A stretch of 64,000 nt of DNA, from contig CP126121.1 of the NCBI GenBank assembly GCA_030123625.1, positions 62,001-126,000 of the forward strand. The letters run 5' to 3'. Within the stretch, counting starts at the first letter, position 1, and each line of letters begins with the position of its first letter. The notes beneath the pieces were generated by a model, which was not told the DNA's origin, did not search any database, and was given only the letters and a program-made list of their open reading frames with translations. The stretch comes from Nitrospira sp. GTDB lineage: Bacteria > Nitrospirota > Nitrospiria > Nitrospirales > Nitrospiraceae. Shown one piece after another: positions 2,764 through 53,298 of this stretch. Position numbers and translations under genes: made by a program.

Positions 2764-2798
2764 GGATGTCGATCTTTCTGCGATCCAAGGCAGGCGGA

Positions 2799-4027: not shown

Positions 4028-4038
4028 GCACCACCTCT

Positions 4039-4075: not shown

Positions 4076-4099
4076 GCCAGGCCGATCACAATACGGGTC

Positions 4100-15209: not shown

Positions 15210-15760
15210 TTTTCACTCTGTACTTTTTGGATAAGGACAGCCTTCCCTTTGAACCCAACAACAGATGCAACTGCGGGTAGATTACTCGCTCCTCTTCTCG
15301 TCTGAGCGATCTTTTGCCGTAAGCGTGCCTCCACAAAGGCACGGTCACCGGCGTCCACACCAGAAATCTCTAACCGAAAGCAGTCTTCCAGATCGGCCGG
15401 TTCTGTGCCAATTGGTGCGATGTACCAATCCGCACCTGTAAGTGTCTCTGCCCGCCGGACGGCAATCATTTGTTCCTCAGCTTCTACAGCTGCTAGACAC
15501 ACCCCGTATGCGCCAGCCTCAGTGGTGTCTATTTCATTAGCCCAAGCGTTCTGCACCCGAAGGTCTGGGCTTTCGAAATCTATAATGCGTTTGGTCGTTT
15601 CGCCACTACAAGCAATCTCAAATTCTACTGGGGAATTATGGTGGCGGCTCAGACACACTGATGCCGCCTCGAAGAAGCTGCCGCCTAATGAAGCAGTCAA
15701 ACCACTATGCCGCTCATGCAGCGAGTTAATTTCTAGCTTCCCAACGTTCGCCTCAGCCAT
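15206..15760 (-). CDS. Unrecognised 184-residue protein of the restriction cluster
   Basis: A soluble, acidic protein: HERHSGLTASLGGSFFEAAS, EAGAYGVCLAAVEAEEQMIA, RAETLTGADWYIAPIGTEPA. Reading it, one sees alternating strands and helices and no membrane segment. The segment ADWYIAPIG is reminiscent of small nuclease-like or ligand-binding folds, but this is not enough for a call. Its stop overlaps the start of the 369-residue gene, and Mod ends 33 bases upstream, so all belong to one operon. Confidence 0.7.
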   Translation of the reverse strand: MAEANVGKLEINSLHERHSGLTASLGGSFFEAASVCLSRHHNSPVEFEIACSGETTKRIIDFESPDLRVQNAWANEIDTTEAGAYGVCLAAVEAEEQMIAVRRAETLTGADWYIAPIGTEPADLEDCFRLEISGVDAGDRAFVEARLRQKIAQTRRGASNLPAVASVVGFKGKAVLIQKVQSEK

Positions 15761-15793
15761 AGAAAGATCCGCTTGATGATGCCCGATTTGGCA

Positions 15794-18577: not shown

Positions 18578-18579
18578 GT

Positions 18580-38479: not shown

Positions 38480-38555
38480 GCTGGCGTAGCTCAATCGGCA
38501 GAGCAGCGGTTTTGTAAACCGCAGGTTGGAGGTTCGATTCCTCTCGCCAGCTCCA
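38480..38555 (+). tRNA. tRNA-Thr (anticodon UGU)
   Basis: 76 bases fold as a cloverleaf: acceptor stem GCTGGCG/CGCCAGC, anticodon stem GCGGT/ACCGC with loop TTTGTAA (anticodon TGT, reading ACA), T arm with GGTTCGATTCC, discriminator T and encoded CCA. The 3' 48 bases are the left attachment repeat of the island, so the tRNA remains intact after integration. Confidence 0.97.
38508..38555. repeat. attL: 48-bp attachment repeat within tRNA-Thr
   Basis: Bases 38508-38555 (anticodon arm to CCA) recur without mismatch at 53251-53298. Tyrosine integrases commonly use the tRNA 3' half as attachment site, and the integrase gene lies 1.2 kb inside. Confidence 0.93.
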
Positions 38556-38600
38556 TTTTTTCAGTAGGTTAGCAACCTCACGAAAACCCCTTTCGGAAAA

Positions 38601-38622
38601 CGTAGTGAATAGCGTAGTGAAT
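38601..38622 (+). repeat. Arm-type direct repeats next to attL
   Basis: CGTAGTGAAT occurs twice, separated by AG. The same motif and variants (CGTAGGGGAAT) occur next to attR at 53110. Paired repeats inside both ends are what arm-type integrase binding sites look like. Confidence 0.5.
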
Positions 38623-38703
38623 CATTCCCGATTTACAGCGCGCATATTTGACGATATATGCCGATTGGCATAAAGTCCTACCTTCACTCGAAACCTTAAA
38701 CAA

Positions 38704-39225
38704 ATGACATCGGAAACGGATAATTTTTCATGGCTTATTAAAGCACGCACATCAAACCAGGAAGCCTTGTTACGACTCTACCGCCTCAATATCACCGATA
38801 ATTCAAACCCGGTCAGTCAGCAAACATATACTCTGCTCGTTGGTGCAGGCTTTTCGTTATGGCGTGCTGCATTTTTAAGTGATGTCACACGAGAAACTCA
38901 TAAGATTGCAGAGGATGCGAGAAAATTAATTAAGCGTCTCATTCAAGACAATTCCGTAGGCTATCCTCAAGACCGTGAGACACGCGAATGGATGGCTGGT
39001 TACTACATCAATAATGCAATATGGCGTCTTCTTATCGCGTGGAAATTTATCAAAGAAGAAGCCAATGAGCCAACGCCACAAGCCTTGGTGAGTCTAAAAG
39101 ACTTCGATGAACGTGGAGCGGAGAATGAATCACCTGTCGATCTATGGAATTCTTCGCACGAAGCCCTCTGTGCCATCTTGCATATTCTAGAAAGTAGGAC
39201 ACAGCAAACAAAGGCACTCGAATGA
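38704..39225 (+). CDS. Unrecognised cargo protein, first gene of a coupled pair
   Basis: 173 residues, mostly helical: FSWLIKARTSNQEALLRLYR, VSQQTYTLLVGAGFSLWRAA, NNAIWRLLIAWKFIKEEANE. The base composition is clearly more AT-rich than the flanking chromosome. The gene ends on the start of the next gene (ATGA), so the two are a unit. It lies between attL and the integrase, the usual place for cargo genes in satellites. No family recognised. An antitoxin or sensor partner of the HEPN-like second gene is a possibility only. Confidence 0.7.
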   Translation: MTSETDNFSWLIKARTSNQEALLRLYRLNITDNSNPVSQQTYTLLVGAGFSLWRAAFLSDVTRETHKIAEDARKLIKRLIQDNSVGYPQDRETREWMAGYYINNAIWRLLIAWKFIKEEANEPTPQALVSLKDFDERGAENESPVDLWNSSHEALCAILHILESRTQQTKALE

Positions 39226-39773
39226 CAGACTTTTCATCTAGTTTCCCAGGAACTGGAAGTTTAGCGCAACGATTGAGAAAAATTCTTTATCCCGACCTGA
39301 CAGATAACGAAGTAGAAACTATCACCGTATGCTTGATGTCGCATTTGCTAGTGGAGAGCGCTCTTAACGGCCTACTGTTTCGATGGTTACAACGAGACAC
39401 CGTGATGATAGGGAGTGCCAAAGCCTTGTACGAGGCGGAAGAAGTTTTGTGGAAGCAGATCGTGAAGATGGATTTTGCAAAAAAATATAGTCTGGTAGAG
39501 CCATTTTTTGCGATCTCTTTTTCTAAGGATGCTGTAAAAGATCCTTGGAAAATTAATGATCTTCGAAATGACCTATTCCACGGACGGGCTATTAAGGAAG
39601 CAAAATTCAAGGGAAAGTCAATATGCGAAGAGAGCACCGTTCAGGATATTTTTTTAGCCGCGCAATCCGCTAGAAATAACTTTGGAAGATTTGAAGAAAT
39701 GAAATACGCGCCACGCTCTCCCCTGCAAGGTTGGGAAGAATGGCTAAAAATGAAAGACGAAACTTCCTTATGA
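39222..39773 (+). CDS. HEPN-like protein, second gene of the attL cargo pair
   Basis: 183 residues, all-helical. Segment INDLRNDLFHGRAIKEAKF contains R-N-x-x-x-H, the RX4H pattern of HEPN ribonucleases, in the usual LRN...HG setting. The N-terminal helices (TVCLMSHLLVESALNGLLFR) also fit HEPN-type folds. HEPN proteins often act as RNases in toxin-antitoxin and antiphage systems, but many LRN...HG proteins are not proven enzymes. It overlaps its partner by 4 bases and converges with the integrase gene, overlapping it by 6 bases. Confidence 0.7.
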   Translation: MTDFSSSFPGTGSLAQRLRKILYPDLTDNEVETITVCLMSHLLVESALNGLLFRWLQRDTVMIGSAKALYEAEEVLWKQIVKMDFAKKYSLVEPFFAISFSKDAVKDPWKINDLRNDLFHGRAIKEAKFKGKSICEESTVQDIFLAAQSARNNFGRFEEMKYAPRSPLQGWEEWLKMKDETSL

Positions 39774-40946
39774 CGCAGGTACAGCTTCAATACTATGGAG
39801 CACGTTCAAGGAATGATCGGGATTATCGTTCGATACCGCAGGATCGGTGAAATGGACGAGCCGTTCAATCGCCTTTGTTTTATGCTGCGGGGCGAGGTGA
39901 GCGTACCGCATCACCATCGTTAAGTCAGCCCAACCGCCGAGTTCCTGAACAGTCCGAAGATCGACGCCTGCCATCACAAGCCGGGACCCAAAGGTGTGTC
40001 TGAGGTCATGGGGCCTGATCTTCGGGATCTTCGCCCGTTTCCACGCGTGTCTAAAGCTTGTCCCGATGTCGCTATAGGGAGTTCCATCCTTCTTCGCAAA
40101 TACGTACTCAGATGTTGCGGTCTCCTTCATCGCTTTTAAGGTGTTGAAGGCAATGGAATTCAAAGGCACATTCCGCGTATGACCATTTTTCGCATATCCC
40201 GATTCTACCGTTAAGAACCCTCGTTTCAAATCTACGCACTCCCATTTCAAGGTGAGAGCCTCGGCCTTGACCCTTAAGCCGGTATGGATGGCGATCAAAA
40301 TGAGTGAGCGTAAGGGTTCTTGCGCGGCTGAGAGTAGGCGAGTCTCTTCGGTGGGGTCGAGAAAACGGTCTTGATTACGTGGTTCCCTGCGGTACCGTAC
40401 CTTTTTCATAGGATTCTCGCCTTGGTATAGCCCCCAGGCGATACACTTATTAAACAGGACCTTCACCGTGGCAAGCTCGCGATTACAGCGGACCGGAGCC
40501 CCGCGCTTCGCAACGATGCGGCGTCGTTCCCACTCCTTATCGCTGATGTCCGAAGGCCGTTCGGTCAGTTCCCTGCCCTCCCCTCGCCGCTTCTTATACG
40601 CTTCCAGGCTCCAGGCCGTGATCTGGCTCAATCGCTTCCCGCTGAACTCCTCACTAAGATAGTCGAGACAGGCGGTGTACGTGCGGATGGTATTCGGTCG
40701 TTTCTCGCCTTTGATCCAGTCTTCGAATTTCTTCCGCGCCTCATCAAAGGTGAGATCTTTTTTCGATTTTCTTCCGATCCCGGCTTCCCCCCGAAGGATC
40801 TTCGCACGCTCAATCGCGGCCAACTCCAAGGCGACCGTGCGGGTGATCCCTCGGCCTAATCGTTTTTGGTAACGGGCGTGGTTGATGAAAATATCCAACC
40901 ACCAGGTCTTCCCCCGCTTATAAATTCCGTCACCGCGCCGAGGCAT
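39768..40946 (-). CDS. int: Tyrosine recombinase (integrase) of the island
   Basis: 392 residues from the ATG at 40946, which has GGAGGA five bases upstream; the longer frame to 41027 is not needed. The N-terminal part has an arm-binding-like region and a SAM-like core-binding domain (FEDWIKGEKRPNTIRTYTAC). The catalytic part shows R225 (HTGLRVKAEALTLKW), K253 region, H313-x-x-R316 (PHDLRHTFGSRL), W339 in place of the second His, and Y348 (VMRYAHLAP). All are compatible with activity. It would join the 48-bp att site in tRNA-Thr. Excision would need a directionality factor, perhaps the AlpA-like gene. Confidence 0.94.
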   Translation of the reverse strand: MPRRGDGIYKRGKTWWLDIFINHARYQKRLGRGITRTVALELAAIERAKILRGEAGIGRKSKKDLTFDEARKKFEDWIKGEKRPNTIRTYTACLDYLSEEFSGKRLSQITAWSLEAYKKRRGEGRELTERPSDISDKEWERRRIVAKRGAPVRCNRELATVKVLFNKCIAWGLYQGENPMKKVRYRREPRNQDRFLDPTEETRLLSAAQEPLRSLILIAIHTGLRVKAEALTLKWECVDLKRGFLTVESGYAKNGHTRNVPLNSIAFNTLKAMKETATSEYVFAKKDGTPYSDIGTSFRHAWKRAKIPKIRPHDLRHTFGSRLVMAGVDLRTVQELGGWADLTMVMRYAHLAPQHKTKAIERLVHFTDPAVSNDNPDHSLNVLHSIEAVPAS

Positions 40947-41103
40947 CGTGTCCTCCTTCGGTGAAGATCTGGTCGGCGACAGCATACGCCCGAGGGGCTG
41001 AGAGACCGGCGGCCCGGAGGAAGGCAAGACATTGAAAATAGTCGCGCTCCGATTCGGGGAACGCAGCGAGGTAACGGGCGGCCATCTCGGCGTCGTCGGT
41101 CAT
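40930..41103 (-). CDS. Small protein coupled to the XRE repressor
   Basis: 57 residues: MTDDAEMAARYLAAFPESER then DYFQCLAFLRAAGLSAPRAY and IFTEGGHDASAR. Its ATG overlaps the stop of the XRE gene (ATGA) and its end overlaps the integrase start, so it is the middle gene of an XRE-small-int operon. The helical composition suggests a small DNA-binding or adaptor protein. No family recognised. Confidence 0.65.
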   Translation of the reverse strand: MTDDAEMAARYLAAFPESERDYFQCLAFLRAAGLSAPRAYAVADQIFTEGGHDASAR

Positions 41104-41276
41104 TTCAGTAATTTTCCGAGTGGGACTTTCAGGGCCTTCGCCAATTTCTTCAACGTCGCCAATGAGGGATTCCGGCGCTTGCCGCGTTCGAGCATCGACA
41201 GGTACGGTTGCGACATTCCCGTTCGTTCGGCGAGTTGGGAGAGCGTGAGGTGATGGGTTTTGCGAAGGCGTTTCAT
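41100..41276 (-). CDS. XRE-family repressor of the island (likely leaderless)
   Basis: 58 residues from MKRLRK at 41276. A classic Cro/CI helix-turn-helix: LTLSQLAERTGMSQPYLSML, ERGKRRNPSLATLKKLAKAL. It probably represses the island's promoters. The -10 hexamer TATAAT lies seven bases before this ATG, so the message probably has no leader, as known for lambda cI from PRM. An ATG two codons upstream falls before the expected transcription start and is less likely. Confidence 0.88.
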   Translation of the reverse strand: MKRLRKTHHLTLSQLAERTGMSQPYLSMLERGKRRNPSLATLKKLAKALKVPLGKLLK

Positions 41277-41283
41277 AGCCATT

Positions 41284-41312
41284 ATTATAACTAGTAGTTA
41301 ATACCAATGGTA
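41284..41312 (-). promoter_or_regulatory. Promoter and possible operator of the XRE-int operon
   Basis: On the minus strand TTACCA and TATAAT are separated by 18 bases. The inverted repeat TACCATTGGTA (41302-41312) covers the -35 region and may be the repressor's own operator. Confidence 0.5.
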
Positions 41313-41338
41313 AGTTAGTAGATATACGTGCTGATGTG

Positions 41339-42787
41339 TTAATAAATTCCAAGCTGGCGCAACTTTTGTCGGCTGAGTGGGCGGCCTGTTCCTGTATCGT
41401 ACATTTGGACTTGGTGCCGACCTTGTTGAGAGCAGAGAGTGATGTTGCCGCAACAAGCATTCGCCAGGTCGTCCCTCCCTCCTGGAGGATGATCAATTGA
41501 GTCTTTGCCGCTGCGGGCGGTGCGGCGTTCAAGCTGCATCAGTTCAAGCGTGAGTGGTTGGATATCGAGCAGACTCAATGCCCCTTGCGAGAACAAGGGG
41601 AGGACTTCAAGATAGAGTTCTGATTTGGTCAGCTCGGAGTGTTGATACGTAATGCCATTTTTGTCGAAGGCCTCGCGGACCCATTCACCTGAATATCTGT
41701 CGCCAGTGACCGTGTAACAGCGATACGACTTAAGCAAATTGGAGAACTCTTTCGCCACGGCGCTTGGATCAAATGGTGGTTTGATACCTCGACAGACATC
41801 CAAGACGTATCGCTCACCTTCTGTATGTGCAATACTCAACGCGAACGAGTCGTGTACACCGCCTGACGGATCGCAAAAAGCGGTGTAGTGGTAACGGTCT
41901 TGGGGCGCACGCTCATGGCGTCCTCGCTCAATGGCTTGCTCGATGAGTTCATAATCCAAGAAAGTGCCCACGTCGCTCCGAAATTGCGCCAGGTATTCGG
42001 CGCTAGCCGCTGCCGGATCAAGTTCCATGGCACGGTCAATGATCGATTGCGGCACGCAGGGGTTCATTCGACGAGTCTCGGACTGGACTATCAAAACGCT
42101 CGATTCATCTTTTCCATAGTGGCGTTTATGCGCCTCGTAGAGAGGACCACTTCGCTTGTACGGAGAACTGAGACCGAGTAGGAGGGCTCCAGGAATCGTA
42201 GCCATGGCCGGCCGCAATGCAGCCAAGATTTCCTCGGCGGGATTGCTCGACTCTTCACTCCGCCAAAACGCAATTTCATCACACAGAGCAGCGAGCACCG
42301 TATAACCTCTGATCGTCCTGTATGAGGCCGTCATAATCTCAATGGTCACGCCGTTGGTCAGGTCAATCGACTCGGTGTCCTCGCGTTCGATCATTCCGGC
42401 CAGCATCGGTACAGACTGCAAGATGGCTTTGAGATACCGCATAATGATTCTGGACTGCTTTTTGTCGGTGGCAATGACCGGAATCACACCGCGTTCGCCG
42501 GGACCAAGGCAGGAACGATAATCTCGAAAGCACGCCAGGAAGGCGGCAATCAGAGCAACGATGAAGCTCTTGCCGCTCCGTCGTCCGCAAATGAGCCACG
42601 CTTCCGAGACTGGACCTGCAGGCGGATGCTGGCGTCCGGTGAGTTGCCGGAAGATGGAAAGATCCTCATCCGACATCGGCAGGCCAAAAATCGCTCGAAG
42701 CACGACAAGCCACGCCTGCCACGTTGCAAGATCTTTGAACAGCGGTCGGAGCAGCTTTGCATCGTGAATTGCGTCCAAGATGGTCAC
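41339..42787 (-). CDS. Phage terminase large subunit
   Basis: 482 residues from GTG at 42787, with GGAGGAG before it and six bases after the preceding stop. The ATPase part has Walker A GRRSGKS (68-74) and Walker B LAALCDEIAFW (D170/E171). The nuclease part has D306 in FCDPSGGVHDSFA, GDRYSGEW and GGRDDLANA near the end, the RNase H-like acidic residues. The enzyme packs DNA into empty heads. With no capsid genes in the element, it may redirect a helper's packaging. It looks complete. Confidence 0.92.
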   Translation of the reverse strand: MTILDAIHDAKLLRPLFKDLATWQAWLVVLRAIFGLPMSDEDLSIFRQLTGRQHPPAGPVSEAWLICGRRSGKSFIVALIAAFLACFRDYRSCLGPGERGVIPVIATDKKQSRIIMRYLKAILQSVPMLAGMIEREDTESIDLTNGVTIEIMTASYRTIRGYTVLAALCDEIAFWRSEESSNPAEEILAALRPAMATIPGALLLGLSSPYKRSGPLYEAHKRHYGKDESSVLIVQSETRRMNPCVPQSIIDRAMELDPAAASAEYLAQFRSDVGTFLDYELIEQAIERGRHERAPQDRYHYTAFCDPSGGVHDSFALSIAHTEGERYVLDVCRGIKPPFDPSAVAKEFSNLLKSYRCYTVTGDRYSGEWVREAFDKNGITYQHSELTKSELYLEVLPLFSQGALSLLDIQPLTLELMQLERRTARSGKDSIDHPPGGRDDLANACCGNITLCSQQGRHQVQMYDTGTGRPLSRQKLRQLGIY

Positions 42788-42791
42788 AACG

Positions 42792-43088
42792 TCACTCCTC
42801 CAAATTTCCACCTGCGTTTGCGAGCCGGATGCTCCAATCACGGAGCTGCGTTCTATCGCGGCTCTCAAGACGTCGCAGGATGACATCGTGGGTGTACCGT
42901 TGCACGTCGGCTGGTGAGTGCTCTGGGTATTGAATGCCAATCTCGCCTTGGAGATTCTTTTGTTGCTCGGCCAAATCAAGTTTGGTCTCTAGCGACGAGA
43001 CGATGAAGTTGAGTGATTCCTCGATAGCCTTCGTAAGAGCGGATTGCTGTTTTGCTAACTGGTTATAATTTTCGACGGCTGCACTCAT
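42792..43088 (-). CDS. Small coiled-coil protein upstream of the terminase
   Basis: 98 residues from the ATG at 43088, with AAAGGAG in front. A helical, Gln- and Glu-rich protein: YNQLAKQQSALTKAIEESLN, FIVSSLETKLDLAEQQKNLQ, then YTHDVILRRLESRDRTQLRD. It lies six bases before the terminase start, the place where small terminase subunits are usually encoded, but no HTH is evident. Function unknown. Confidence 0.7.
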   Translation of the reverse strand: MSAAVENYNQLAKQQSALTKAIEESLNFIVSSLETKLDLAEQQKNLQGEIGIQYPEHSPADVQRYTHDVILRRLESRDRTQLRDWSIRLANAGGNLEE

Positions 43089-43214
43089 TGGTTGCTCCTT
43101 TGTTAGATGAGGCGGAAATGTCCTGGCGTTTCCATAATGTCTCCTTTGGCCTAACTTCGGCGAGGCACCCCACCGGGGCAACCTCGCCTGGGCCGGGGCA
43201 GGCCTGCCGCGACT

Positions 43215-43916
43215 TTACGTTGACGCCCCAGCAAGTTGAGGCACGTCGGCTATGTCCGCACCCAAATTGTCACGAAGGATTTTAGGTTCCACGCCGATTT
43301 CTTCCGACAACCATTTGCTGATCCAATCTCGGATCATCACGAGAAATTCCAATAAGAGTTCGGCCTGCTCAAGGTTCGTGTGATCTTGCGGTCTGAGACG
43401 CGCGGCCCGTTCAAACAAGACTCGTTCTTTCACGTCCTGCGGGACCATTTCGCCTTCCGGATGACTTAACATCGCGGCCAACGTCTTCACTTCGTCTTTT
43501 TCGCCAGCCAGCGCAAAGCGTTTGGTGCGACCGTTAGGGTCGAGCACGTCCAGCTTTTGCCAGAGATAAATGAACGTCGAGATACGCTCTGCTGGGTCCT
43601 TGATCGTTGAGTCGACTGCGAGAAACTCTGACCGGAGGCGCTTGACCTTTGCCTCTAAGTCCTCGATCTCCTTCTTCTGCCACTTCAAATTCTTGATGGT
43701 CTCGTCGATGGCATACTTTTTCAGCTTCTCCCTCTGCCCTTGTTGACTCAAGCCAAGATTCGCCATAATTTTATGGTCTTCGCGCTGGAACTCTTCTAAG
43801 AGCGTCTTTGTGTCGCGGATGTGCGTCCGCTTGGTATTGAAGGAGTCAGTGGTCAGCCCGGTATTGCGTGCCATCTCCGTGTCCAATGCGCTCGTGATCC
43901 GTACTGGCGTTGACAT
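43215..43916 (-). CDS. Coiled-coil protein of unknown function (island)
   Basis: 233 residues, highly charged and helical: NTKRTHIRDTKTLLEEFQRE, KKYAIDETIKNLKWQKKEIE, DLEAKVKRLRSEFLAVD. A long coiled coil spans about 55-100, and the second half has GEKDEVKTLAAMLSHPEGEM. No family recognised. It starts three bases after the preceding gene's stop, so it is part of the same transcript. A scaffold or DNA-binding role is conceivable but not supported. Confidence 0.7.
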   Translation of the reverse strand: MSTPVRITSALDTEMARNTGLTTDSFNTKRTHIRDTKTLLEEFQREDHKIMANLGLSQQGQREKLKKYAIDETIKNLKWQKKEIEDLEAKVKRLRSEFLAVDSTIKDPAERISTFIYLWQKLDVLDPNGRTKRFALAGEKDEVKTLAAMLSHPEGEMVPQDVKERVLFERAARLRPQDHTNLEQAELLLEFLVMIRDWISKWLSEEIGVEPKILRDNLGADIADVPQLAGAST

Positions 43917-43919
43917 TGT

Positions 43920-44360
43920 TTATTCTCCTTTACTGGGTTGTGGCTCCGTTGATTGAGGAGCCTGTTGTAGAGCCGTGGGCTCCAGTTGTTTGCGTGCTTC
44001 AATGTATTCGTGTAGGGGTGGAATCTTTTTCGCCCGACGTCGCAATCCGATCTTCGACAAGAGACCGGCTAATGCGTTTATGGACGCGATGTACGCGTGT
44101 ACTTCCACTGTCCCGCCTTTCGCCACGATCAATTCCATTCGCTCGATATGTCGTTCCAGAAAAACAATTCGTTTGCATAGCGATTGTTCTTGAAACGAAA
44201 GGCTCTCAAGTCCACCGAGATCCGAGGCGAGGGCGTTGAACCGTTCGTGGAGTGCTTTCACCGCGGTGACTCGTCCGTCCATCTTTTGGATAAAGTCCGC
44301 TCGATACCGTTTGGAGATGTCGGTCGGTTTTGTTCCTATTCCACTATTCTTCCCGCCCAT
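43920..44360 (-). CDS. Island protein starting MGGKNSG, unknown function
   Basis: 146 residues: MGGKNSGIGTKPTDISKRYR, FIQKMDGRVTAVKALHERFN, then RIVFLERHIERMELIVAKGG. Helical middle and a Pro/Gln-rich tail. Genes opening with MGGKNSG or similar are common just before terminase genes in phages, where some are small terminase subunits. The resemblance here is limited to the opening. It overlaps the preceding frameshifted gene by 17 bases. Confidence 0.65.
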   Translation of the reverse strand: MGGKNSGIGTKPTDISKRYRADFIQKMDGRVTAVKALHERFNALASDLGGLESLSFQEQSLCKRIVFLERHIERMELIVAKGGTVEVHAYIASINALAGLLSKIGLRRRAKKIPPLHEYIEARKQLEPTALQQAPQSTEPQPSKGE

Positions 44361-44759
44361 CGTTTTCCCTTCGCCGAGCTACAATTTCCCTACGGCATTC
44401 ACTACGCTCGGCCAAAATGCGTGCTAAGTCGTTGAGATTCTTAGACCAAGGTGCGGTCTTAAGAACCTCCGGTCGATAACATATTGTTGGGCGATACGAG
44501 GCTTCCTTCGAACTGCGCTCGTCTCGCACCTCCTGCAATGGTTTAAGCGGCTTAACGGGCTGGTCCTTCGCACCTTCCTTCCATCCGGCTTCGATCCTAA
44601 TGGGGGAAGTACGGGGAAATACGGGAAGTGGGTTCTTAGGGTTCTTTGGGCCTGTTCTATCCGTGCCCGGGTTATAACTGTCTTTTTGGAAAATCCAGTT
44701 TCGACCCGAGATCTACGGTAAAACGCAAAAGAACACACTTTTCGGGCTTTTTTTGTCAC
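44344..44759 (-). pseudogene. Frameshifted small gene between primase and MGGKNSG gene
   Basis: A GTG at 44759 overlaps the primase stop (GTGA) and opens a frame beginning MTKKARKVCSFAFYRRSR. After about 44,712 a different frame has the stronger coding character: NWIFQKDSYNPGTDRTGPKN, PIRIEAGWKEGAKDQPVKPL, then ARILAERSECRREIVARR to a stop at 44344. This second frame has no ATG or GTG for 170 bases, so the two halves are probably one gene broken by an indel. A run of seven As near the start is error-prone. Function unknown. Confidence 0.45.
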
Positions 44760-47527
44760 AAAGAACCCACTTCCTTCTCCCGCCTCTTTACTTCATACCG
44801 CGCCAGACCGTTTTTCATCGTCCGGTCGAGGTATAAAACGACTCCCCACTCGTTCACCGCATTCCGCCCCAAGAGTCTCGATAGGGCATGTCCCACCGAC
44901 CGCTCACTTTTAATGTCTTTCACCCGTAGGGCTAAGAGGGTTTCCCTCAAAATCGGGTCCGGCCCGAACCATTGCTCAGACCCCTCGGCGGCACGTCGTG
45001 GATTCGCATCCGTGACAAGATCACTGGCGCTGAATTGCTTGCCGTCGTACAAATGACGTAAGTGGTGCAGCAGCGCCCGATGGGCGCCGAGTTCCGGCGA
45101 GGTCTCAATGTTCATATCGAACACCGTGCCCACATCCTCCTGCCCGGACCAAAGCAAGGGATGCCGAACCAGCCGGTCCCACTGGGGAAAACGGGATGGG
45201 GCAACCTGAACCGGTTCGTTGTGTGTGAGGTATCCGGCAATCACTCCAATGACGTGACGGAGAACCACGTCTCGAATCTCTAAGGCGTGGCGGATGAGAT
45301 CGGGATAGGTGAATTGTCGCTTATGGGGACTGACTTCTTTCGTCGTGAGTCGAATCGGAATAAAACGGGACGCTTCGTCATTCGACAATGTCACGTTGTT
45401 GCCCGTCAGGATAAAGACGACACTCGTCGATACCACCGCGTCACGATTATGCCCAAGCAACCGACCTTGCTTTGTGGCCGAGGTCATCGCGGCCGACAGG
45501 GCGGGTGAACGAAAAGACATTCCATCGCCGCAATTATCAAAGGTCACCACCTCTGGACTCCGTAGCAACGTCGACAAAAGAAGTTTTTGTACTTCCACAT
45601 CATCGTCCGGCCACGTAAAGATCGGCGCATCCGTGCCAGTCACGGCGCAATGAATTTTTCTTGCCAAACTTGTTTTGCCGCTACTTTGTGTCGAGGCCGT
45701 AATCAAAAACCCCGGGGACATATCCATTAACTTCCGCTCGACTATCGTGAAAAGCAGCGCAAGAGCTGCCGCGATATCCAAGCCAGATGCAAACTCAAAT
45801 CCATCAAAAAGATCCCGCACGATGTGGTCAACCGCTTCGCGGGCTTCCGCTTGGGAATACGGGCGAAGTCCTTCGATGTGAGGACCGTAAAGAAAAAGGC
45901 CAGTGGTCGGGTCAATTCCTGAAGCCGCGATAATTTCCCCAGTTCGAATGACCTGAGGATGGGCCGAGAGGCCAATAACAGTTCGGATGAAGCGCGGATT
46001 GACCAGGATCTGATCCAGGATACTGTGCGGCACGCCGATTAGTGTGGAACCGGATTCAGTGAAGATCTGGAGAACCGTCGCGCGTTCAACTAGCGGAAGC
46101 AGTTTGGCCCTGGTCATCAAATCGAGTTGGCCGGTTGGCACTGAAGAGACATCGCTATCCGCTTGGTGCGTATGCGGAAGGGTTTGCCGACAAAACCGCA
46201 CGACGCTGTCGCCAAATCGGACACATTCCCCTTCGGTGAGTCGTGCCACCATCGCCGCTTCCACTTGGTGGGCGACGTCGCAGACATCTTCGGGGCGAAA
46301 CTCGATAATGGTCCGGCGCCCAATGCGCTGCTGGGCGGCCTCCCGTTTTTTCTGTTCGTGCTCTTCGCGCAGCCTGGCTTTGAGCAGATTCACGCCGGTG
46401 CCGAGGAGCCGCGCAAGTTCCGTCAAGACCGTGTGGCGGTCTTCCGCATTCAGCCCCCTCACATAGTCCTTCCAGGTGGCCTTAAGGTCGTCGATGGACA
46501 AGGCACGTAGTTTCGCTAATCGCTCGGCCACGGTCAGAGGGGCTTGGTAAGTCTCCGTTACAGTGGCGCACGCGTTGGCGATACATTCCGCCCCATAAGT
46601 GCTCTCATTCCGCCGTTCATCCCATTTCTCCCGCATCAGCTTACTCTGACGAAACATTCGATCCATTCGTTCGGGATTGCGGCCATACCAGTATGCGAGA
46701 TAACAACACAAGGCGCTGTCTGCTTCCGATTGGGATGGGTAGTCGCCGATCCAATCACCCGCCCATAGCTTCTTGATCTTCGTACCGTTCTTTGAGCCAA
46801 AGGCACGCGCCAATTGCGTCTCATCATCCTCGGGAATAGGCTCGGACGGCTTTTCCGTTTTCTTGGTTTCTTCTAAAGGCACCAATACCGACTCAAGCCC
46901 GTTCACAATAGCGCCGGTTCCCCCGGGAACCGCTCTGACGAGGACTGGTTCGAGCGAGCGACCAGCTTTGGCCTTCTTAGCGTTGGGCCAGTTCAACGTC
47001 CCATCGATACGCCAGACGTGGGCAATATCACCCGTTCCGGCATCGCATTTGGCTGTCAATTGCAGGCGCTTGGCGAGCGTCTCCGCGTGCGCAGCGTCCG
47101 ATGGATCGAGAAAGTAGCCGGTTTGAAAACGGCCTGGAGAGCTTTCGAGCGCATAACTCGGCGCAAGGGGAACTCGGTTTGGCCAATCCACAGCATTGGC
47201 ATCATCGTAATCAGCAACCAACCCGAGCACCGCTACAATATCTTCCTTACCTCCTCGGCTCCCTATAGGCAGATTGGGGCGCATCAGAACGAGGGCGGTA
47301 TAGACATTGACGTGGGGCAGGACCGTCCATTCCATTGTCTGCTCGACCATTCGGCTCACATCCCCAATGGGAAAGGGTTTGATCCTCGACGGGAGCTTCT
47401 TGCCGGAGGACGGATTTTGGCCATAGGCGACCAGCACCAGCTCTCCTTCTACCTCCGCTGCTTTGGCGCGCGTATGGATCATCTCCACAAACGAGGTAAT
47501 CGCCGCTCGGTTAGGAGTTGCGCTCAT
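44756..47527 (-). CDS. Primase-helicase with NrS-1-like domain
   Basis: 923 residues from the ATG at 47527 (GGAG six bases before). The N-terminal archaeo-eukaryotic-type primase has the acidic motif VADYDDANA (D106, D108) and HVWRIDGTLNWPN like the RxPGT motif of RepB/PriS-type primases. Residues 262-320 (EADSALCCYLAYWYGRNPER to STYGAECIANAC) resemble the helix-bundle domain of the NrS-1 phage polymerase. Walker A TQSSGKTS is at 613-620, with Walker B VVTFDNCGD. It should prime and unwind at the island's origin for autonomous replication, the role of Rep/Pri in satellites. Confidence 0.85.
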   Translation of the reverse strand: MSATPNRAAITSFVEMIHTRAKAAEVEGELVLVAYGQNPSSGKKLPSRIKPFPIGDVSRMVEQTMEWTVLPHVNVYTALVLMRPNLPIGSRGGKEDIVAVLGLVADYDDANAVDWPNRVPLAPSYALESSPGRFQTGYFLDPSDAAHAETLAKRLQLTAKCDAGTGDIAHVWRIDGTLNWPNAKKAKAGRSLEPVLVRAVPGGTGAIVNGLESVLVPLEETKKTEKPSEPIPEDDETQLARAFGSKNGTKIKKLWAGDWIGDYPSQSEADSALCCYLAYWYGRNPERMDRMFRQSKLMREKWDERRNESTYGAECIANACATVTETYQAPLTVAERLAKLRALSIDDLKATWKDYVRGLNAEDRHTVLTELARLLGTGVNLLKARLREEHEQKKREAAQQRIGRRTIIEFRPEDVCDVAHQVEAAMVARLTEGECVRFGDSVVRFCRQTLPHTHQADSDVSSVPTGQLDLMTRAKLLPLVERATVLQIFTESGSTLIGVPHSILDQILVNPRFIRTVIGLSAHPQVIRTGEIIAASGIDPTTGLFLYGPHIEGLRPYSQAEAREAVDHIVRDLFDGFEFASGLDIAAALALLFTIVERKLMDMSPGFLITASTQSSGKTSLARKIHCAVTGTDAPIFTWPDDDVEVQKLLLSTLLRSPEVVTFDNCGDGMSFRSPALSAAMTSATKQGRLLGHNRDAVVSTSVVFILTGNNVTLSNDEASRFIPIRLTTKEVSPHKRQFTYPDLIRHALEIRDVVLRHVIGVIAGYLTHNEPVQVAPSRFPQWDRLVRHPLLWSGQEDVGTVFDMNIETSPELGAHRALLHHLRHLYDGKQFSASDLVTDANPRRAAEGSEQWFGPDPILRETLLALRVKDIKSERSVGHALSRLLGRNAVNEWGVVLYLDRTMKNGLARYEVKRREKEVGSL

Positions 47528-47918
47528 CGACGGCTCCACGTCCCGCGTGGCGCGAACAAATAGCGTCCATCGTCGAGTGACATCGCCATATCGATGTTCA
47601 GCTCCTTCGCGACTTTGACCAACGTTCGCTGTTCATCCTCAACGACAATCGGCTCCGAAAGAGCCACTCTTGGCCCTCGACCGAGCCCCAGTGCATCTGC
47701 CAGTGCTTCATAAACGACAGCCGGAAGAGAGCGTCCCAATGCGTCGGACACCATTCTTGGGCAAAGCGTTCTCTGTAGGGCGTCAGGAGGATTTCCAGCC
47801 AGCGCGGCATCCGACCGACGAGAACCGGCAGGATCAAATTCACGCGGATCATTCGACCGCGCTGAGTGACGATGGGGATATGTTCGCTTTTTTGAATCGG
47901 CTGGCGTAAAGTTTCCAT
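47524..47918 (-). pseudogene. Small gene with a probable frameshift
   Basis: The ATG at 47918 has AAAGGAG seven bases upstream and opens METLRQPIQKSEHIPIVTQR, then LEILLTPYRERFAQEW. From about 47,750 this frame turns into a Trp/His/Met-rich shadow. The neighbouring frame continues naturally with SLPAVVYEALADALGLGRGP, ALSEPIVVEDEQRTLVKVAK and ends on the primase start (ATGA). One indel near 47,750 would join both. Two overlapping genes are the alternative, but the second has no ribosome binding site. Function unknown. Confidence 0.55.
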
Positions 47919-47971
47919 TACACACTCCTTTGTACGAGCCGCGTCGGGGTCATCGTCCTGGCGCGGCTAAA

Positions 47972-48193
47972 TCATCGTTGTCGAGCCTTCCAATTAAGTT
48001 CAGCTTCAACAGCGCTCGTTCCCGGAAGACTTTTGAGAAATCGATCCAGTTCAGTTTTTTTAAAGACCAGTCGTTTGCCAATTTTTTGCCATGGGATGAG
48101 ACGGCGAGCGACCTTGTGCCGTACGGCTTTGGTGGAACAGTTCAACAACTCCGCAACCTGCGCCACATCATAAAAAATGGCCTTATCGCCCAT
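47972..48193 (-). CDS. AlpA/excisionase-like HTH protein
   Basis: 73 residues with a winged-helix DNA-binding pattern of the MerR/excisionase (HTH-17) type: FYDVAQVAELLNCSTKAVRH, KVARRLIPWQKIGKRLVFKK, TELDRFLKSL. Such AlpA-like proteins activate satellite and prophage gene expression or act as excision factors. It overlaps the preceding HTH gene by 11 bases and lies upstream of the primase operon, a fitting place for an activator. Confidence 0.82.
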   Translation of the reverse strand: MGDKAIFYDVAQVAELLNCSTKAVRHKVARRLIPWQKIGKRLVFKKTELDRFLKSLPGTSAVEAELNWKARQR

Positions 48194-48383
48194 GACGGTG
48201 CTCCGCGAGAACGCCCAGAATGCGAAGCTTCACCGCTGCAGGCATCGCCACCCTTTCGCGGAGCATATTGCTCAAAGATGCCGGATGGACTCGAATCCGG
48301 GCCGCGAGGATATACAGTGGTTGGCGCCAATGCCGGGTAATTTCAACGCGAAGTTCAGTTGCCGATATGCCTGTATTCTGCAT
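48183..48383 (-). CDS. Small HTH protein of the island control region
   Basis: 66 residues: ISATELRVEITRHWRQPLYI, LAARIRVHPASLSNMLRERV, AMPAAVKLRILGVLAEHRHG. The central part fits a Cro/CI-type helix-turn-helix (recognition helix around VHPASLSNML). It overlaps the AlpA-like gene. It could counteract the XRE repressor or set early gene expression. Confidence 0.65.
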   Translation of the reverse strand: MQNTGISATELRVEITRHWRQPLYILAARIRVHPASLSNMLRERVAMPAAVKLRILGVLAEHRHGR

Positions 48384-48428
48384 ATCGGGACTCTAACGAA
48401 TTTTTAGTTTTAAGGAAAAAAAGAAAGG

Positions 48429-48455
48429 CTCGGTAAAACCGAGAGTATCTTTTTT
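48429..48455. terminator. Bidirectional hairpin terminator
   Basis: CTCGGT-AAA-ACCGAG (48429-48443) is followed by a T run on the plus strand (48450-48455), and on the minus strand by TTTCTTTTT. For the minus strand it ends the transcript of the gene at 48499-48834. Confidence 0.6.
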
Positions 48456-48498
48456 GGGGCCCGCCCCCTAGGAGAGCGGACCCCGAAGGTGTGACGAC

Positions 48499-48834
48499 TT
48501 AGGAGTGGTCGTCAGCGAGGCGATGCGGACGCACGCGGATGGCCGACACCCGTTCGCCGTTATACTCGACGTTTTTGTCGATAAACAGCGCGATGCGCTG
48601 GCCAACCCAGTCGTCCATCTCATACCCGAATAGGCCGACAACTACATTGCCGTTGCCGACATTTAACGCAAAGCCCTTCTCCAGTTCTCTGAACCAGAGA
48701 ACCGGTTTCTTCGCAGGCTTCGCGCCGTACTTGAGATCCTCTTCGGTAACCGATTGAATCGTGACGACGGTGTCCCGATCCGTTGGCAGATCAGTGGCCC
48801 GAAGAAGCGTGATAGGTGGTTTGTAAATAGCCAT
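48499..48834 (-). CDS. Phage-type conserved protein, possible ssDNA-binding-like
   Basis: 111 residues from the ATG at 48834 (TTGGAGGA eight bases before). Text: MAIYKPPITLLRATDLPTDR, KPVLWFRELEKGFALNVGNG, GYEMDDWVGQRIALFIDKNV, YNGERVSAIRVRPH. The WVGQRIALF...VRP pattern occurs in small phage proteins near recombination or replication genes. A single-strand-binding or annealing-helper role is possible from that context only. It has its own transcript ended by the hairpin at 48429. Confidence 0.65.
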   Translation of the reverse strand: MAIYKPPITLLRATDLPTDRDTVVTIQSVTEEDLKYGAKPAKKPVLWFRELEKGFALNVGNGNVVVGLFGYEMDDWVGQRIALFIDKNVEYNGERVSAIRVRPHRLADDHS

Positions 48835-48922
48835 TACGTCCTCCAATGTTTGACGCTGCACCTATTGCAACGCCTTCTGGAGGAACTATGTCACGCGCTG
48901 ATCGAGCCAGGATAAAAAGGAA

Positions 48923-49579
48923 CTATGCCGCTCGACGAGACTTTCTTTTTCGGACCGGAAAGAAAGTGGTGTGCCGCTCAGAGTAGGCGGAATATATGGA
49001 GGAACGAAGCGATTTCATCTCAACAAGCCGTACCGGAGCGATACAGGCGACTGCAAATTTATGGAAGTTGCCGATGTAAAGATCGTCAGCATACGCGTTT
49101 GGAGAAAACTGAGGCATAATTCCTGTGGCGTCCTCAAAAATGCTCAGGAGCAGATTGACCGCACGATGGATCGCGTAGTTTTTTAACTTTCCGGTCTTCT
49201 GAAGGTTTACGTGAAAATTAGGTTTCTCTGCCGCTTGCCGCACAGTAGTTAAGCCTCTGCCGAAGAGGGAAGGCCAATCCATCCGGTCCTGGTCATCAAG
49301 GTGCCACTGCTCACGTACTCCAAGCGCCTCATAAGCCTGGGCTGCCATTTCCAGCCCTTTAATAATGTTTCTATAATGGTGGGCCCTCTTGCCCGAATAG
49401 GCCACGGCGCCTGGGACTAAAGTACCCTCCGACAAGTCCACCATCGTGGTGCTGATAATAAAAAGAATGCGGTCCCAGCTAACGTCAGCCTTCAACCCTG
49501 CTTTCTTCAAGGCCTGATAGATGGCCTTCTCTTCTTGCTTGGAGTATCCAGTTTCGTGGAACGGCTTTGCTTGGCGCAT
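48923..49579 (-). CDS. Unrecognised 218-residue island protein
   Basis: Soluble mixed protein: TGYSKQEEKAIYQALKKAGL, DRILFIISTTMVDLSEGTLV, GKRAHHYRNIIKGLEMAAQA, NYAIHRAVNLLLSIFEDATG, with a basic tail FFPVRKRKSRRAA. No family recognised. It is transcribed divergently from the TIR gene with 237 bases between, so it may share control with it. It could be cargo. Confidence 0.65.
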   Translation of the reverse strand: MRQAKPFHETGYSKQEEKAIYQALKKAGLKADVSWDRILFIISTTMVDLSEGTLVPGAVAYSGKRAHHYRNIIKGLEMAAQAYEALGVREQWHLDDQDRMDWPSLFGRGLTTVRQAAEKPNFHVNLQKTGKLKNYAIHRAVNLLLSIFEDATGIMPQFSPNAYADDLYIGNFHKFAVACIAPVRLVEMKSLRSSIYSAYSERHTTFFPVRKRKSRRAA

Positions 49580-49816
49580 CTGTCTCCTCCAGCGGTGTTG
49601 CTATTCGCACAGGCAATTGGATAGACAAAATCGATTCATCACGAACGCCCCGTATCACCCCGCTCGACTATACGCCGATTCTGGGATCTTGCGCTATCCT
49701 TCATTCGCACATACAATTACTTTTCCGTTTTGGAGGCCTATGGTCTTCTCAATTCCTCCACACCCCATTCGTTGCTTCTCGACATTAGTCTTCACACTTG
49801 AGCCAAAGGGGAAAAC

Positions 49817-50670
49817 GTGACAGCCTCGACCAAAGACATTTTCATTTGTCACGCGAGCAAGGATAAAGAAAAGGTAGCCTTCCCTCTGTTTCGAGCGTTT
49901 GAAGATTCCCAGATCTCCTGTTGGTACGACGAGGCAGAAATTCGATGGGGAGATAGCATAACCGAGAAGGTTAATCACGGGATGCGAATCTCAACATATG
50001 TCCTGGTCGTGCTGAGTCCAGCCTTCTTGGAAACGAGTTGGCCACAACGCGAAATGAATGCAGCATTAAACGTGGAGGCCTCATCAGGTGATGTAAAAGT
50101 ACTTCCCTTAATCGTAGGCAATGCTCAAGAGAGAGAGACAATTATCAAGCAATATCCTCTACTGAATGACAAATACCACCTCCCTGGAATGGCCAAGTTG
50201 AGCCAATAGTTCAAGCGCTTCAGGCAAGACTTAATCGCAAACCGGAATCAACATCCAGCCGTTCTCCTCAAACCAAACCAAGCCGAAGTATACCGATGCC
50301 TAAAATTCAGAGGGACTTTACTCAATTTGAAAAAGACACTTTTCTCCGTGAAGCTTTTTCATCGGCGGAGGATTATTTCCGGACGGCGCTTGCCAATCTG
50401 AAACGCGAAACAGTAGACGTTGAAACGGACCTAAATGAAATTCATAAATATAAGTTTATCTGTACCGCCTATATCAAAGGTGAATCGTATTCAGACTCTG
50501 ATAACTCAATGAATGATTGGCTGACTGTGAAAGACGACGGGCAGCAGTTGGGCTTTGAGACTTCAGGTATGTGGTTTAAGGCTGACTATTCAGGGCGAAA
50601 CTTTCTTACCGTTGAGGAGGCGTCGGAGTATTTATGGCGAAGGTTTACGGATAGATTGACAAGGAGGTAG
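49817..50670 (+). pseudogene. TIR-domain gene split by one frameshift
   Basis: Start is GTG at 49817 with AAGGGG upstream. The first 130 residues are a TIR domain: KDIFICHASKDKEKVAFPLF, ISCWYDEAEIRWGDSITEKV, VLVVLSPAFLETSWPQREMN, with E in the WxxxE position expected for NAD hydrolases. A stop at 50207-50209 ends it. From about 50,203 another frame runs on without a break (VQALQARLNRKPESTSSRSP) into the piece starting MPKIQRDFTQFEKDTFLREA and ending SEYLWRRFTDRLTRR. This C-terminal part is typical of one TIR family. So one gene was cut by a single-base change. TIR proteins act in antiphage defence. Confidence 0.8.
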
Positions 50671-50672
50671 CC

Positions 50673-50825
50673 ATGGTTAAGGCGAGCTATTTCTGCCGTC
50701 GATGTGGGGCAAAATTCAGCATTGATGTTTTCGAGGAAGGTGAAGCTGAAGAAAAAAGAATACCCTCTGGACCCGTGAGATGCAAAGATTGTGGTGGTGG
50801 TGGTGATCTAGAGCGTCGAGGTTAA
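50673..50825 (+). CDS. Small zinc-ribbon protein coupled to the TIR gene
   Basis: 50 residues with two CxxC knuckles (YFCRRCGAKF at 6-15 and VRCKDCGGGG at 35-44), a zinc-ribbon layout. The AAGGAGG ribosome binding site lies over the last codons of the TIR gene, two bases before the ATG, so both are translated together. It is too short for standard gene finding. A regulator or partner of the TIR protein is possible. Confidence 0.75.
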   Translation: MVKASYFCRRCGAKFSIDVFEEGEAEEKRIPSGPVRCKDCGGGGDLERRG

Positions 50826-50883
50826 TCGAGGTTGATTGATTCGATACATGTCTTACCCCATGGCTCGCGCGGCTACGTCGTCA

Positions 50884-51369
50884 TTAGAGGGGCCGTTTCA
50901 ATAACGCCTCAGACAAATATCCCTCAAGTCGGGCGTCATTCAACTCTTTCGTGAGGCACAGGATGTCGTCAGACAGCCTCTTCAGGTCCCTGGACGTAGG
51001 CAAGGGCTGCCAACGGTGATCCTCGCTTTTTTGACATGCGTCTCCGTCGAGTTCTTTCCCCACGACGCTATGTACATAACTATTCCGCTTTTCGGTTGCC
51101 CTCCTGCAGCGTTCGATGATGGCCTCAAGCTTGAGTAGAACCTGCCCTTCGCCTAGTCTTTGTTTAGCCAATTTGCGGATACGGCCTCGGAGATTTGAAG
51201 CACCCTCATAGGCCGTCGCATCTAACGCTTCGTTTACTTCTAAATTTGCAAGTGTCTTTATCGTCATGCGCAGAGCATGATTTAAGTGCTCATGCCGTAA
51301 GGTAAGTTCACCGAACGCTGCGAGAAGTGTTTGGTCCTCGGGGACATCAAGCATAATCATTCTTTCCAT
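50884..51369 (-). CDS. HEPN-like small protein near attR
   Basis: 161 residues from the ATG at 51369, with AGGAGG in front. Helical: LTLRHEHLNHALRMTIKTLA, ASNLRGRIRKLAKQRLGEGQ, then RATEKRNSYVHSVVG. The RNSYVH segment fits the RX4H pattern of HEPN domains. The setting in a long helix after ERCRRATEK is right for such folds, but this pattern alone is weak evidence. It is convergent with the zinc-ribbon gene. It could be cargo or a toxin. Confidence 0.6.
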   Translation of the reverse strand: MERMIMLDVPEDQTLLAAFGELTLRHEHLNHALRMTIKTLANLEVNEALDATAYEGASNLRGRIRKLAKQRLGEGQVLLKLEAIIERCRRATEKRNSYVHSVVGKELDGDACQKSEDHRWQPLPTSRDLKRLSDDILCLTKELNDARLEGYLSEALLKRPL

Positions 51370-51538
51370 AGAACCTCCTGATCGTCGTACGGTTAGATTT
51401 CGGGGCATCCAAGTGTGTCAGAGGATTGGTTCCGTGATCTACCTGCCGAATCAGACCCAGTGCAACCCCCAATTGACAGCATCTCTGCTAGGTTTAACGT
51501 AGAATTTTGACCGACAGACACATGAAAAGGAGGGCGTG

Positions 51539-51685
51539 ATGATAGGACTCTTGATCGCAGCGCTAGAAAGTGTACGCGGCAGGACCAAGCGCCAAGTGGA
51601 ACAAGCCAAAGCGGACGAGTTGAAGGCGGAACTGGAACGAGCGAAGGGCGATGCCGAGCAAGAGAAGGGCGAAGCGAAAGACTAG
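51539..51685 (+). CDS. Short Lys/Glu-rich peptide
   Basis: 48 residues starting MIGLLIAALESVRGRTKRQV and continuing EQAKADELKAELERAKGDAE, a charged single helix likely to form a coiled coil. AAAAGGAGGG lies six bases before the ATG, which is the main evidence for coding. No family. Confidence 0.5.
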   Translation: MIGLLIAALESVRGRTKRQVEQAKADELKAELERAKGDAEQEKGEAKD

Positions 51686-51812
51686 AATCAAAACGTTCGA
51701 TTCTCGCCCTCAACGCACTCGTCCCCAAAGAGTTGGCTCAGGCCAGTAATCTTCTCCTTGACATCCTCGCCGCATCAGCTCAGAGTGCAACTCTACTTTA
51801 ATCCACATCTGC

Positions 51813-51866
51813 CGACGGCCTCCTGTAAGGCCTGACCGCCGTCTTGTGTGAGAAAGGCGGTCACCC
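51813..51866 (+). promoter_or_regulatory. Structured leader element, copy A
   Basis: A first small stem GGCCT/AGGCC is followed by a stem TGACCGCC/GGCGGTCA with loop containing TGTGAGAAA, ending three bases before the ATG at 51867. The only Shine-Dalgarno-like bases (AAGGCGG) lie in the 3' arm. A second copy precedes the gene at 52694. Confidence 0.6.
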
Positions 51867-52190
51867 ATGGCAGATGTTCCACGTGTATCAGCGCGTAATC
51901 TCATCCCTGACTCCACCGTCAAACCGCTCTCGATCAGTGAGAAACGTCGAGTTTCTAGAGACGCGATACAACGCCTTGAGCACATTGTCACCGTCCAAGA
52001 GGATCGTGTGAAGACGATGCGGCATCGGTCAATAGGAAGTCCCTCCCTCACACGTCGACTGCAAGTGCTTATGAAGGAGAATCTCATCACCTATAGGAAC
52101 ACCCTTCAGTATGTGCGACAGACAGCGGAAACCCTCGAAGTTTGTTGGTCTGCGATAGAGAATGGAAATTCTCTACCTGATACTGAATAG
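51867..52190 (+). CDS. Small helical island protein with structured leader
   Basis: 107 residues: VSARNLIPDSTVKPLSISEK, RRVSRDAIQRLEHIVTVQED, LTRRLQVLMKENLITYRNTL, QYVRQTAETLEVCW. It is rich in Arg and helices; a DNA- or RNA-binding role cannot be excluded. The leader element directly before it is shared with the gene at 52694, although the two proteins are not visibly related. No family recognised. Confidence 0.6.
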   Translation: MADVPRVSARNLIPDSTVKPLSISEKRRVSRDAIQRLEHIVTVQEDRVKTMRHRSIGSPSLTRRLQVLMKENLITYRNTLQYVRQTAETLEVCWSAIENGNSLPDTE

Positions 52191-52204
52191 CGAGGAGGAG
52201 GCCA

Positions 52205-52489
52205 TCACCCTGATTTTCGAGCAATCCCGCGCCTCGGTACACGAGGCTTGCGAGTAGATTTTCGAACGGACGCAGTGACGAGAGGAAAGCCTGAAGAGAG
52301 TTTTAACGAGGTATGTTTTCTCTTCCATGTATCAAGAAACGTCACCAATCCAGTTATGGTTACCTCGACCGAACTCAAGTCTTGGTCTGTGAGTTCGCGA
52401 CCTTGTTGTAAATAGGCCTCCAGCGGCGAACATCCCTTCATAAACGTCGCGATCATTTTTTGGGTTGCGAGATACTGCGGCTTGGCCAT
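52205..52489 (-). CDS. Small protein related to the one at 61509
   Basis: 94 residues from Met at 52489: YLATQKMIATFMKGCSPLEA, YLQQGRELTDQDLSSVEVTI, then LVTFLDTWKRKHTS and a basic tail. The pattern QK...FM...SP..A.L..G..LT...L.S....L.T....W.RK recurs in the protein at 61509-61754 outside the island, so these are paralogues. The start has no clear ribosome binding site. Function unknown. Confidence 0.55.
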   Translation of the reverse strand: MAKPQYLATQKMIATFMKGCSPLEAYLQQGRELTDQDLSSVEVTITGLVTFLDTWKRKHTSLKLSSGFPLVTASVRKSTRKPRVPRRGIARKSG

Positions 52490-52640
52490 GCGATGGAGTA
52501 TGACGTGCGCGGGAACAAGATTGCTAGATGTTTTTCCGGAACGCCTCACTAAGCCGTGGACCGAATCGCCCTTCCGTAGGCATTGACACGTCCGGGGCTG
52601 GCGAGTAACATCGCCTACCTCACATCTCTAACCCACATTG

Positions 52641-52693
52641 CGACGGCCGCATGGATGGCCAGTCCGCCGACTTTGTGAGAAAGGCGGACCGCT
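52641..52693 (+). promoter_or_regulatory. Structured leader element, copy B
   Basis: Shares CGACGGCC, CCGCCG and TGTGAGAAAGGCGG with copy A. The main stem is GTCCGCC/GGCGGAC. Compared with copy A one base pair is swapped (A-T to T-A) while pairing is kept, a sign that structure is selected. It ends four bases before the ATG at 52694. Confidence 0.6.
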
Positions 52694-53035
52694 ATGCTAC
52701 GGCTTCGTAGAGAGATCAGCGACTATTCACGTTCTTGCGAGCATCTCATTTCCGCAGCAGCAGCTTCCGATGCCGTTCCCTTTACTCAGGACGAGATTGA
52801 TTGGATCGAGTACTATGCTACGGAGATGACCAACCTGGTCGATCAACTCGTGCGGAAATCTAAAACGCAGGTTTACCACGACCGCCAAACAATCCAAGCG
52901 TTCGCCATCGCCTCCGAGGCGTTATTCCTCACGGATAGTCTTTCGAATGGGGAGCGAGACAGCATCCGGCAATCGGTCTCCGATATCACGACACAGATTC
53001 TGGATGAAAACAAAGATCCAGCCTTGGAGGCGTGA
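52694..53035 (+). CDS. Small helical island protein with structured leader
   Basis: 113 residues: LRLRREISDYSRSCEHLISA, FTQDEIDWIEYYATEMTNLV, DQLVRKSKTQVYHDRQTIQA, SNGERDSIRQSVSDITTQIL. Acidic and helical. It is the last gene before attR and is preceded by leader copy B, which would hide the start site. No family recognised. Confidence 0.6.
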   Translation: MLRLRREISDYSRSCEHLISAAAASDAVPFTQDEIDWIEYYATEMTNLVDQLVRKSKTQVYHDRQTIQAFAIASEALFLTDSLSNGERDSIRQSVSDITTQILDENKDPALEA

Positions 53036-53109
53036 TTCACGCCACCAACGCAATCGTCACGGTTGGGTTAAACCGTGACCCAATCCCCTCCCCGCACATC
53101 GAAAAAAAG

Positions 53110-53170
53110 CGTAGTGAATAGCGTAGGGGAATTGTAGGGGAATCTCGGGGTAATGCGGGGAAATACGGGG
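53110..53170 (+). repeat. Arm-type direct repeats next to attR
   Basis: Consecutive variants CGTAGTGAAT, CGTAGGGGAAT, TGTAGGGGAAT, then CGGGG-type units. The first is identical to the repeat pair at 38601-38622. They lie 80 to 140 bases inside attR, suiting arm-type integrase or excisionase sites. Confidence 0.5.
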
Positions 53171-53250
53171 TATACCTACCAACACGAAATCGTCAGTCTA
53201 GACGCGGTGATTCGAGCGTTTTCAGGGGGTTACGAAGACCCTGCCCGGAA

Positions 53251-53298
53251 GGTTTTGTAAACCGCAGGTTGGAGGTTCGATTCCTCTCGCCAGCTCCA
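53251..53298. repeat. attR: 48-bp attachment repeat
   Basis: Perfect copy of the 3' 48 bases of tRNA-Thr (38508-38555), without the 5' half, so not a functional tRNA. It marks the right end of the island. Confidence 0.93.

Follow-up and report, generated by a model that had tools for sequence, protein, structure and literature searches.

Results

An integrated element at tRNA-Thr

The window analyzed here, a stretch of 64,000 nucleotides of a Nitrospira sp. genome, contains an integrated element of ~14.7 kb (38508-53298) lying between 48-bp repeats of the 3' end of a tRNA-Thr gene. A TIR gene and a small zinc-ribbon ORF are located toward its right end, among the following features:

38508-38555, + strand: left attachment repeat, 48 bp, the 3' part of tRNA-Thr (38480-38555)
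39768-41027, - strand: tyrosine integrase (Pfam Phage_integrase, E 3.9e-35)
41339-42979, - strand: phage terminase large subunit-like gene (PHROG terminase, E 5.3e-28)
44756-47539, - strand: NrS-1-like primase/polymerase-helicase (Pfam NrS1-1_pol-like_HBD, E 7.3e-29)
47972-48193, - strand: AlpA/excisionase-type helix-turn-helix gene (Pfam HTH_17, E 1.4e-10)
48923-49579, - strand: conserved gene, function unassigned, marking the edge of the module shared with genome G041, where the homologue in the corresponding position is 53% identical
53251-53298, + strand: right attachment repeat, identical 48 bp

The element thus pairs an integrase with direct repeats at a tRNA gene. It also carries replication and packaging genes of its own (the primase and the terminase large subunit) without a full virion set, and no capsid, portal or tail match was found among the element ORFs scanned against Pfam and PHROGs. 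With phage satellites of the P4-like and PICI types it has in common tRNA attachment repeats, an integrase, a primase, an AlpA-like regulator, a terminase, a size of ~15 kb and a variable cargo edge. It differs from them in its NrS-1-like primase, and its likeness to satellites is one of genes and repeats.

A related module was found in G041, a genome of the same genus. It comprises the terminase, two small genes, the primase (71-72% identical over ~586 residues) and homologues of the 48499 and 48923 genes, and it adjoins a tRNA-Met, with a serine recombinase. Viral contigs yielded no sister elements. Beyond its homologue of the 48923 gene, G041 carries an unrelated gene of 337 residues. Since the TIR gene described here begins beyond the 48923-49579 gene, at the same edge, we place it at a variable cargo edge of the element.

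A TIR gene in two frames

The region beyond the shared module consists of four features:

49817-50209, + strand: TIR domain frame, with a GTG start, an AAAGGGG ribosome-site-like stretch just upstream and an early TAG end (Pfam TIR_2)
50174-50187, + strand: switch of the coding frame by -1 (four TIR relatives aligned with both frames, heptamer scan, codon usage)
50185-50670, + strand: last part of the TIR domain, followed by a linker and the C-terminal alpha/beta domain, all in the -1 frame (PADLOC PDLC00420, plasmid homologues, alignments, structure models)
50673-50825, + strand: 50-residue zinc-ribbon ORF, CRRCG...CKDCG (Pfam zf_Tbcl; ribosome-site and CxxC scan)

The TIR frame encodes 130 residues, from the GTG at 49817 to a TAG at 50207-50209, and matches Pfam TIR_2 with an E value of 3.1e-20. 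By inspection, it retains the glutamate of the motif SWPQREM, which is the expected NADase residue, and the solved structures nearest to it were those of AbTIR, an NAD+ hydrolase, and other bacterial TIRs. With a TIR fold recognized by profile and a catalytic glutamate, the domain would be classed as a bacterial NADase TIR. In the -1 frame, an open stretch runs from 50170 to a stop at 50668-50670, and the two frames are open together over 37 bases (50170-50206). Codon usage, trained on the organism's own genome, favored frame 2 up to ~50160 and frame 1 from ~50295, leaving the linker between them undecided. When four TIR relatives were aligned with both frames, the alignment followed the TIR frame as far as 'DK(YHL)' at ~50173-50182, after which the -1 frame supplied 'WNGQVEPIVQALQARL', by inspection a typical TIR-domain ending. 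The switch was therefore placed at ~50174-50187, within or next to a short C-rich stretch and ~20 bases upstream of the TIR stop.

The C-terminal half matched the PADLOC ThsB model PDLC00420 (319 residues) from profile position 159 onward, with an E value of 2.3e-15, and its plasmid homologues with E values down to 2e-7, although it is only ~21-32% identical to its homologues. At least 11 distinct homologues join the TIR and C-terminal domains in a single ORF of ~315-350 residues, six on plasmids (L003 and L005-L009) and five on chromosomes (L119, L120, L122, L123 and L126); two further loci, L124 and L125, are near-identical to L007 and joined as well. The intact homologues L003 and L009 matched PDLC00420 from end to end. 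Judged by these alignments, the TIR frame and the -1 frame are two halves of one gene.

Much of this bears out a preliminary description of the locus, made from the sequence alone, which had given the TIR stop at 50207, had assigned the expected C-terminal part to the next frame (as the PDLC00420 match agrees) and had held that the reading would fall if no homologue joined the two halves. It had the frames one base apart, as they are, but took the gene to be interrupted near 50203-50207, which is the position of the stop and not of the switch, and it had the second frame open only from ~50,203.

Relatives of the gene were sparse near this organism. A single-protein query found no close relative in genome contigs or viral contigs, and an alignment query returned 8 distant loci. 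Among 296 genomes of the phylum, an HMM of the C-terminal domain matched this genome only. The 12-row alignment further revealed that ~25 residues following residue 93 of the C-terminal half are missing here and present in 11 of the 11 aligned homologues. The missing segment is a predicted beta-hairpin: strands 243-252 and 260-265 appear in the model of a homologue and are not formed in the model of this copy. This copy may have suffered a second lesion there, or it may be a naturally short variant. The model of the C-terminal domain had a modest pLDDT of 72. A Foldseek search with it against the PDB gave nothing below E 0.1, and a search with a full-length homologue gave matches to the TIR region only, among the matches listed.

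The neighborhoods of the joined homologues are informative as to function. Immediately upstream of the L003 gene is a retron-type reverse transcriptase (RT_VI, E 1.7e-84), and the L009 gene has an annotated anti-phage gene beside it; a defence role is therefore indicated for the joined TIR family. On the Pseudosulfitobacter plasmid that carries L003, a helix-turn-helix gene, the retron-type reverse transcriptase (PADLOC RT_VI) and the TIR gene stand in a row at 1890-4067.

The nature of the frame break

A break of one frame can arise by decay of the gene, by an error in the assembly, or as part of a mechanism that makes use of both frames. If the gene were intact in the organism and the switch a small assembly error, a single indel would suffice; the C-rich stretch at the switch is consistent with such an origin, as is the coding signal kept by both halves, with no other stop. 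The plasmid record L004, which is split in a like manner and whose close relative (L120) is intact, suggests that such errors do occur in records. To set against this, we compared 104 matched conserved genes, ~101 kb of this genome, with a related genome. Seven apparent splits were seen. Four of these, on inspection, were over-extended mechanical ORFs, while the other three, uninspected, had alignments of 19-35 residues. Thus no clear frame break was found elsewhere in ~101 kb of conserved coding DNA, which makes an assembly error unlikely: with an upper limit of 3 per 101 kb, at most ~0.025 errors would be expected in a gene of this size. A base error would, moreover, leave the missing C-terminal segment unexplained. 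We regard this explanation as rather unlikely, though it keeps some weight.

Programmed -1 frameshifting would yield a short TIR protein along with a full-length TIR-sensor protein, and the preliminary description had listed a switch by frame among its options. The direction of the shift and the 37-base open overlap are as such a mechanism would need, and the split in L004 has this direction too, at nearly this position. However, the heptamer scan found no canonical -1 slippery heptamer (X_XXY_YYZ) in phase within the overlap, and at least 11 homologues are joined. The split in L004 is beside a GGG run, and since its close relative L120 is intact we judged it a record error and rejected L004 as a genuine split homologue. 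With no slippery site and no split homologue beyond this dubious one, programmed frameshifting is extremely improbable. The L004 sequence (2986-4097) comes from a plasmid record labelled Lactiplantibacillus, its close relative L120 being from Sphingomonas, and the record is probably contaminated.

Alternatively, each half might now be made as a protein of its own, sensor and effector still cooperating as a split pair, with the zinc ribbon as a third member. An ATG at 50296 coincides with the beginning of the C-terminal domain, and the zinc-ribbon gene follows closely behind and has a strong ribosome site. Yet no ribosome site is evident for the second half, no such stretch preceding the ATG at 50296, and the methionine there need not be a start, because the homologous M-P-R-I sits inside the joined L119 protein. 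The TIR half alone would be without its last helix, and no credible split homologue was present among the homologues found. A split pair is accordingly improbable. More broadly, the junction might serve a function, as a site of splitting or recoding that provides a free TIR fragment, a sensor domain (in small amounts or as a protein of its own) and a zinc-ribbon regulator or antitoxin; this proposal strikes us as very improbable.

Decay is left as the best account of the break. The broken gene is probably a ThsB-like TIR gene that has recently decayed; both halves retain coding character in frames shifted by one, and because this character is still good, the decay, if real, would be recent. 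We infer that the TIR gene is non-functional as it stands. On balance, we read the locus as a TIR defence determinant of the single-gene kind that appears to have been inactivated recently and that forms the cargo along one edge of a phage-satellite-like element at tRNA-Thr.

The zinc-ribbon ORF

The zinc-ribbon ORF starts two bases past the stop of the C-terminal half, and its ribosome site, AAGGAGG at 50661-50667, lies inside that half. It matched Pfam zf_Tbcl with an E value of 5.6e-5, just under the cut-off. In 426 kb scanned, 29 small ORFs (40-80 residues) had a strong ribosome site and an ATG, and this was one of the 2 with two CxxC motifs. Its codon usage was unconvincing (-0.14). We consider it probably a real gene, separate from the TIR gene, and it would lie at the tail of a transcript shared with it.

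Searches of plasmids, phages, viral contigs, 147 genomes of the family and 246 of the phylum yielded no convincing zinc-ribbon homologue; in five genomes of the genus, the matches were all weak and to CxxC proteins of a generic kind. We also scanned 15 other TIR loci, or 13 when near-identical copies are counted once, for an ORF with two CxxC motifs. There was none 3' of the TIR gene at the 7 plasmid loci (L003-L009), and none among the listed ORFs of at least 50 residues at the 8 genome loci (L119-L126). A conserved TIR/zinc-ribbon pair was therefore rejected, and the excerpts of literature that we located held no text pairing a TIR and a zinc ribbon as a single defence system. The arrangement of start and ribosome site is as the preliminary description had it, whereas the searches gave no support to the points that it had raised for checking, a CxxC-CxxC mini-protein regularly following TIR genes of this type and the conservation of the zinc-ribbon frame elsewhere. 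What stands of that description is one TIR gene in two frames; it missed the element context and the C-terminal loss. Separately, an Agrobacterium plasmid TIR protein (L133, 1498-2427) combines a stretch resembling a coiled coil with a zinc-binding-like CPYCG segment in a single chain, and the CPYCG segment bears a faint similarity to the zinc ribbon of this locus.

Discussion

The gene can be set beside several known systems. Its C-terminal half shares the profile of the ThsB-type TIR (PDLC00420), the difference being that the gene is frame-broken here. The TIR half matched another ThsB model (PDLC00417, E 1.1e-15), and thus both halves have the features of a Thoeris ThsB-type TIR protein, in a broken gene. 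A ThsA was not found beside it: at an E threshold of 0.01, none of the element ORFs tested matched ThsA in PADLOC. The TIR half resembles the TIR domains of two other kinds of protein, DUF1883-TIR (PDC-S66) and retron type XII, more closely than those of the ThsB type; its best TIR-domain match was retron type XII RT-TIR (NF042941, PADLOC RT-TIR_XII), with 43% identity to an E. coli plasmid protein. A retron XII would require a reverse transcriptase, and scans of element genes with Pfam, PHROGs and PADLOC gave no match to one.

The phage satellites of E. coli have defence hotspots, and a single-gene TIR defence system has been validated in P4-like satellites (Rousset et al. 2022, PMC9122126). 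The likeness of the present locus to that system is a TIR gene carried as cargo in a satellite hotspot; the host lineage and the element are different here, and the copy is apparently inactive.

In its ancestral form, the protein may have worked by coupling a sensor to an effector. The C-terminal domain would have sensed infection or controlled the oligomeric state, thereby licensing the TIR domain. Once licensed, the TIR domain would have consumed or converted NAD+, and the outcome may have been abortive infection or the production of a signal. The product translated at present would be a 130-residue TIR fragment that has neither the end of its fold nor the C-terminal domain, and the coupling of sensor and TIR would be lost.

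Other loci of this genome may have defence-like features. A second TIR gene (L130, 1158-3364; G000:C1 ~2771660-2773860) apparently carries, by inspection, a fused macro-like domain at its N terminus, and genes of SIR2-like and NTPase-like type come after it, which makes a possible defence cluster. Elsewhere in the genome, TIR_2 has a third match (G000:C1:3739869-3740225), which falls within a very long open frame of 2463 residues. In the window itself, large genes on the minus strand at 14100-21654, by flagellar genes, were suggested by inspection only to be a restriction-modification-like or helicase cluster.

The break in the TIR gene is to be seen as ordinary decay or an assembly error, not as a new mechanism. 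A search of the literature under one genus name returned no report of satellites in this bacterial group. The locus would represent a broken TIR defence gene carried as satellite-like cargo in this group, with exact element ends. Because a related element bears other cargo there, the edge beyond the 48923-49579 gene is a place to seek new defence genes.
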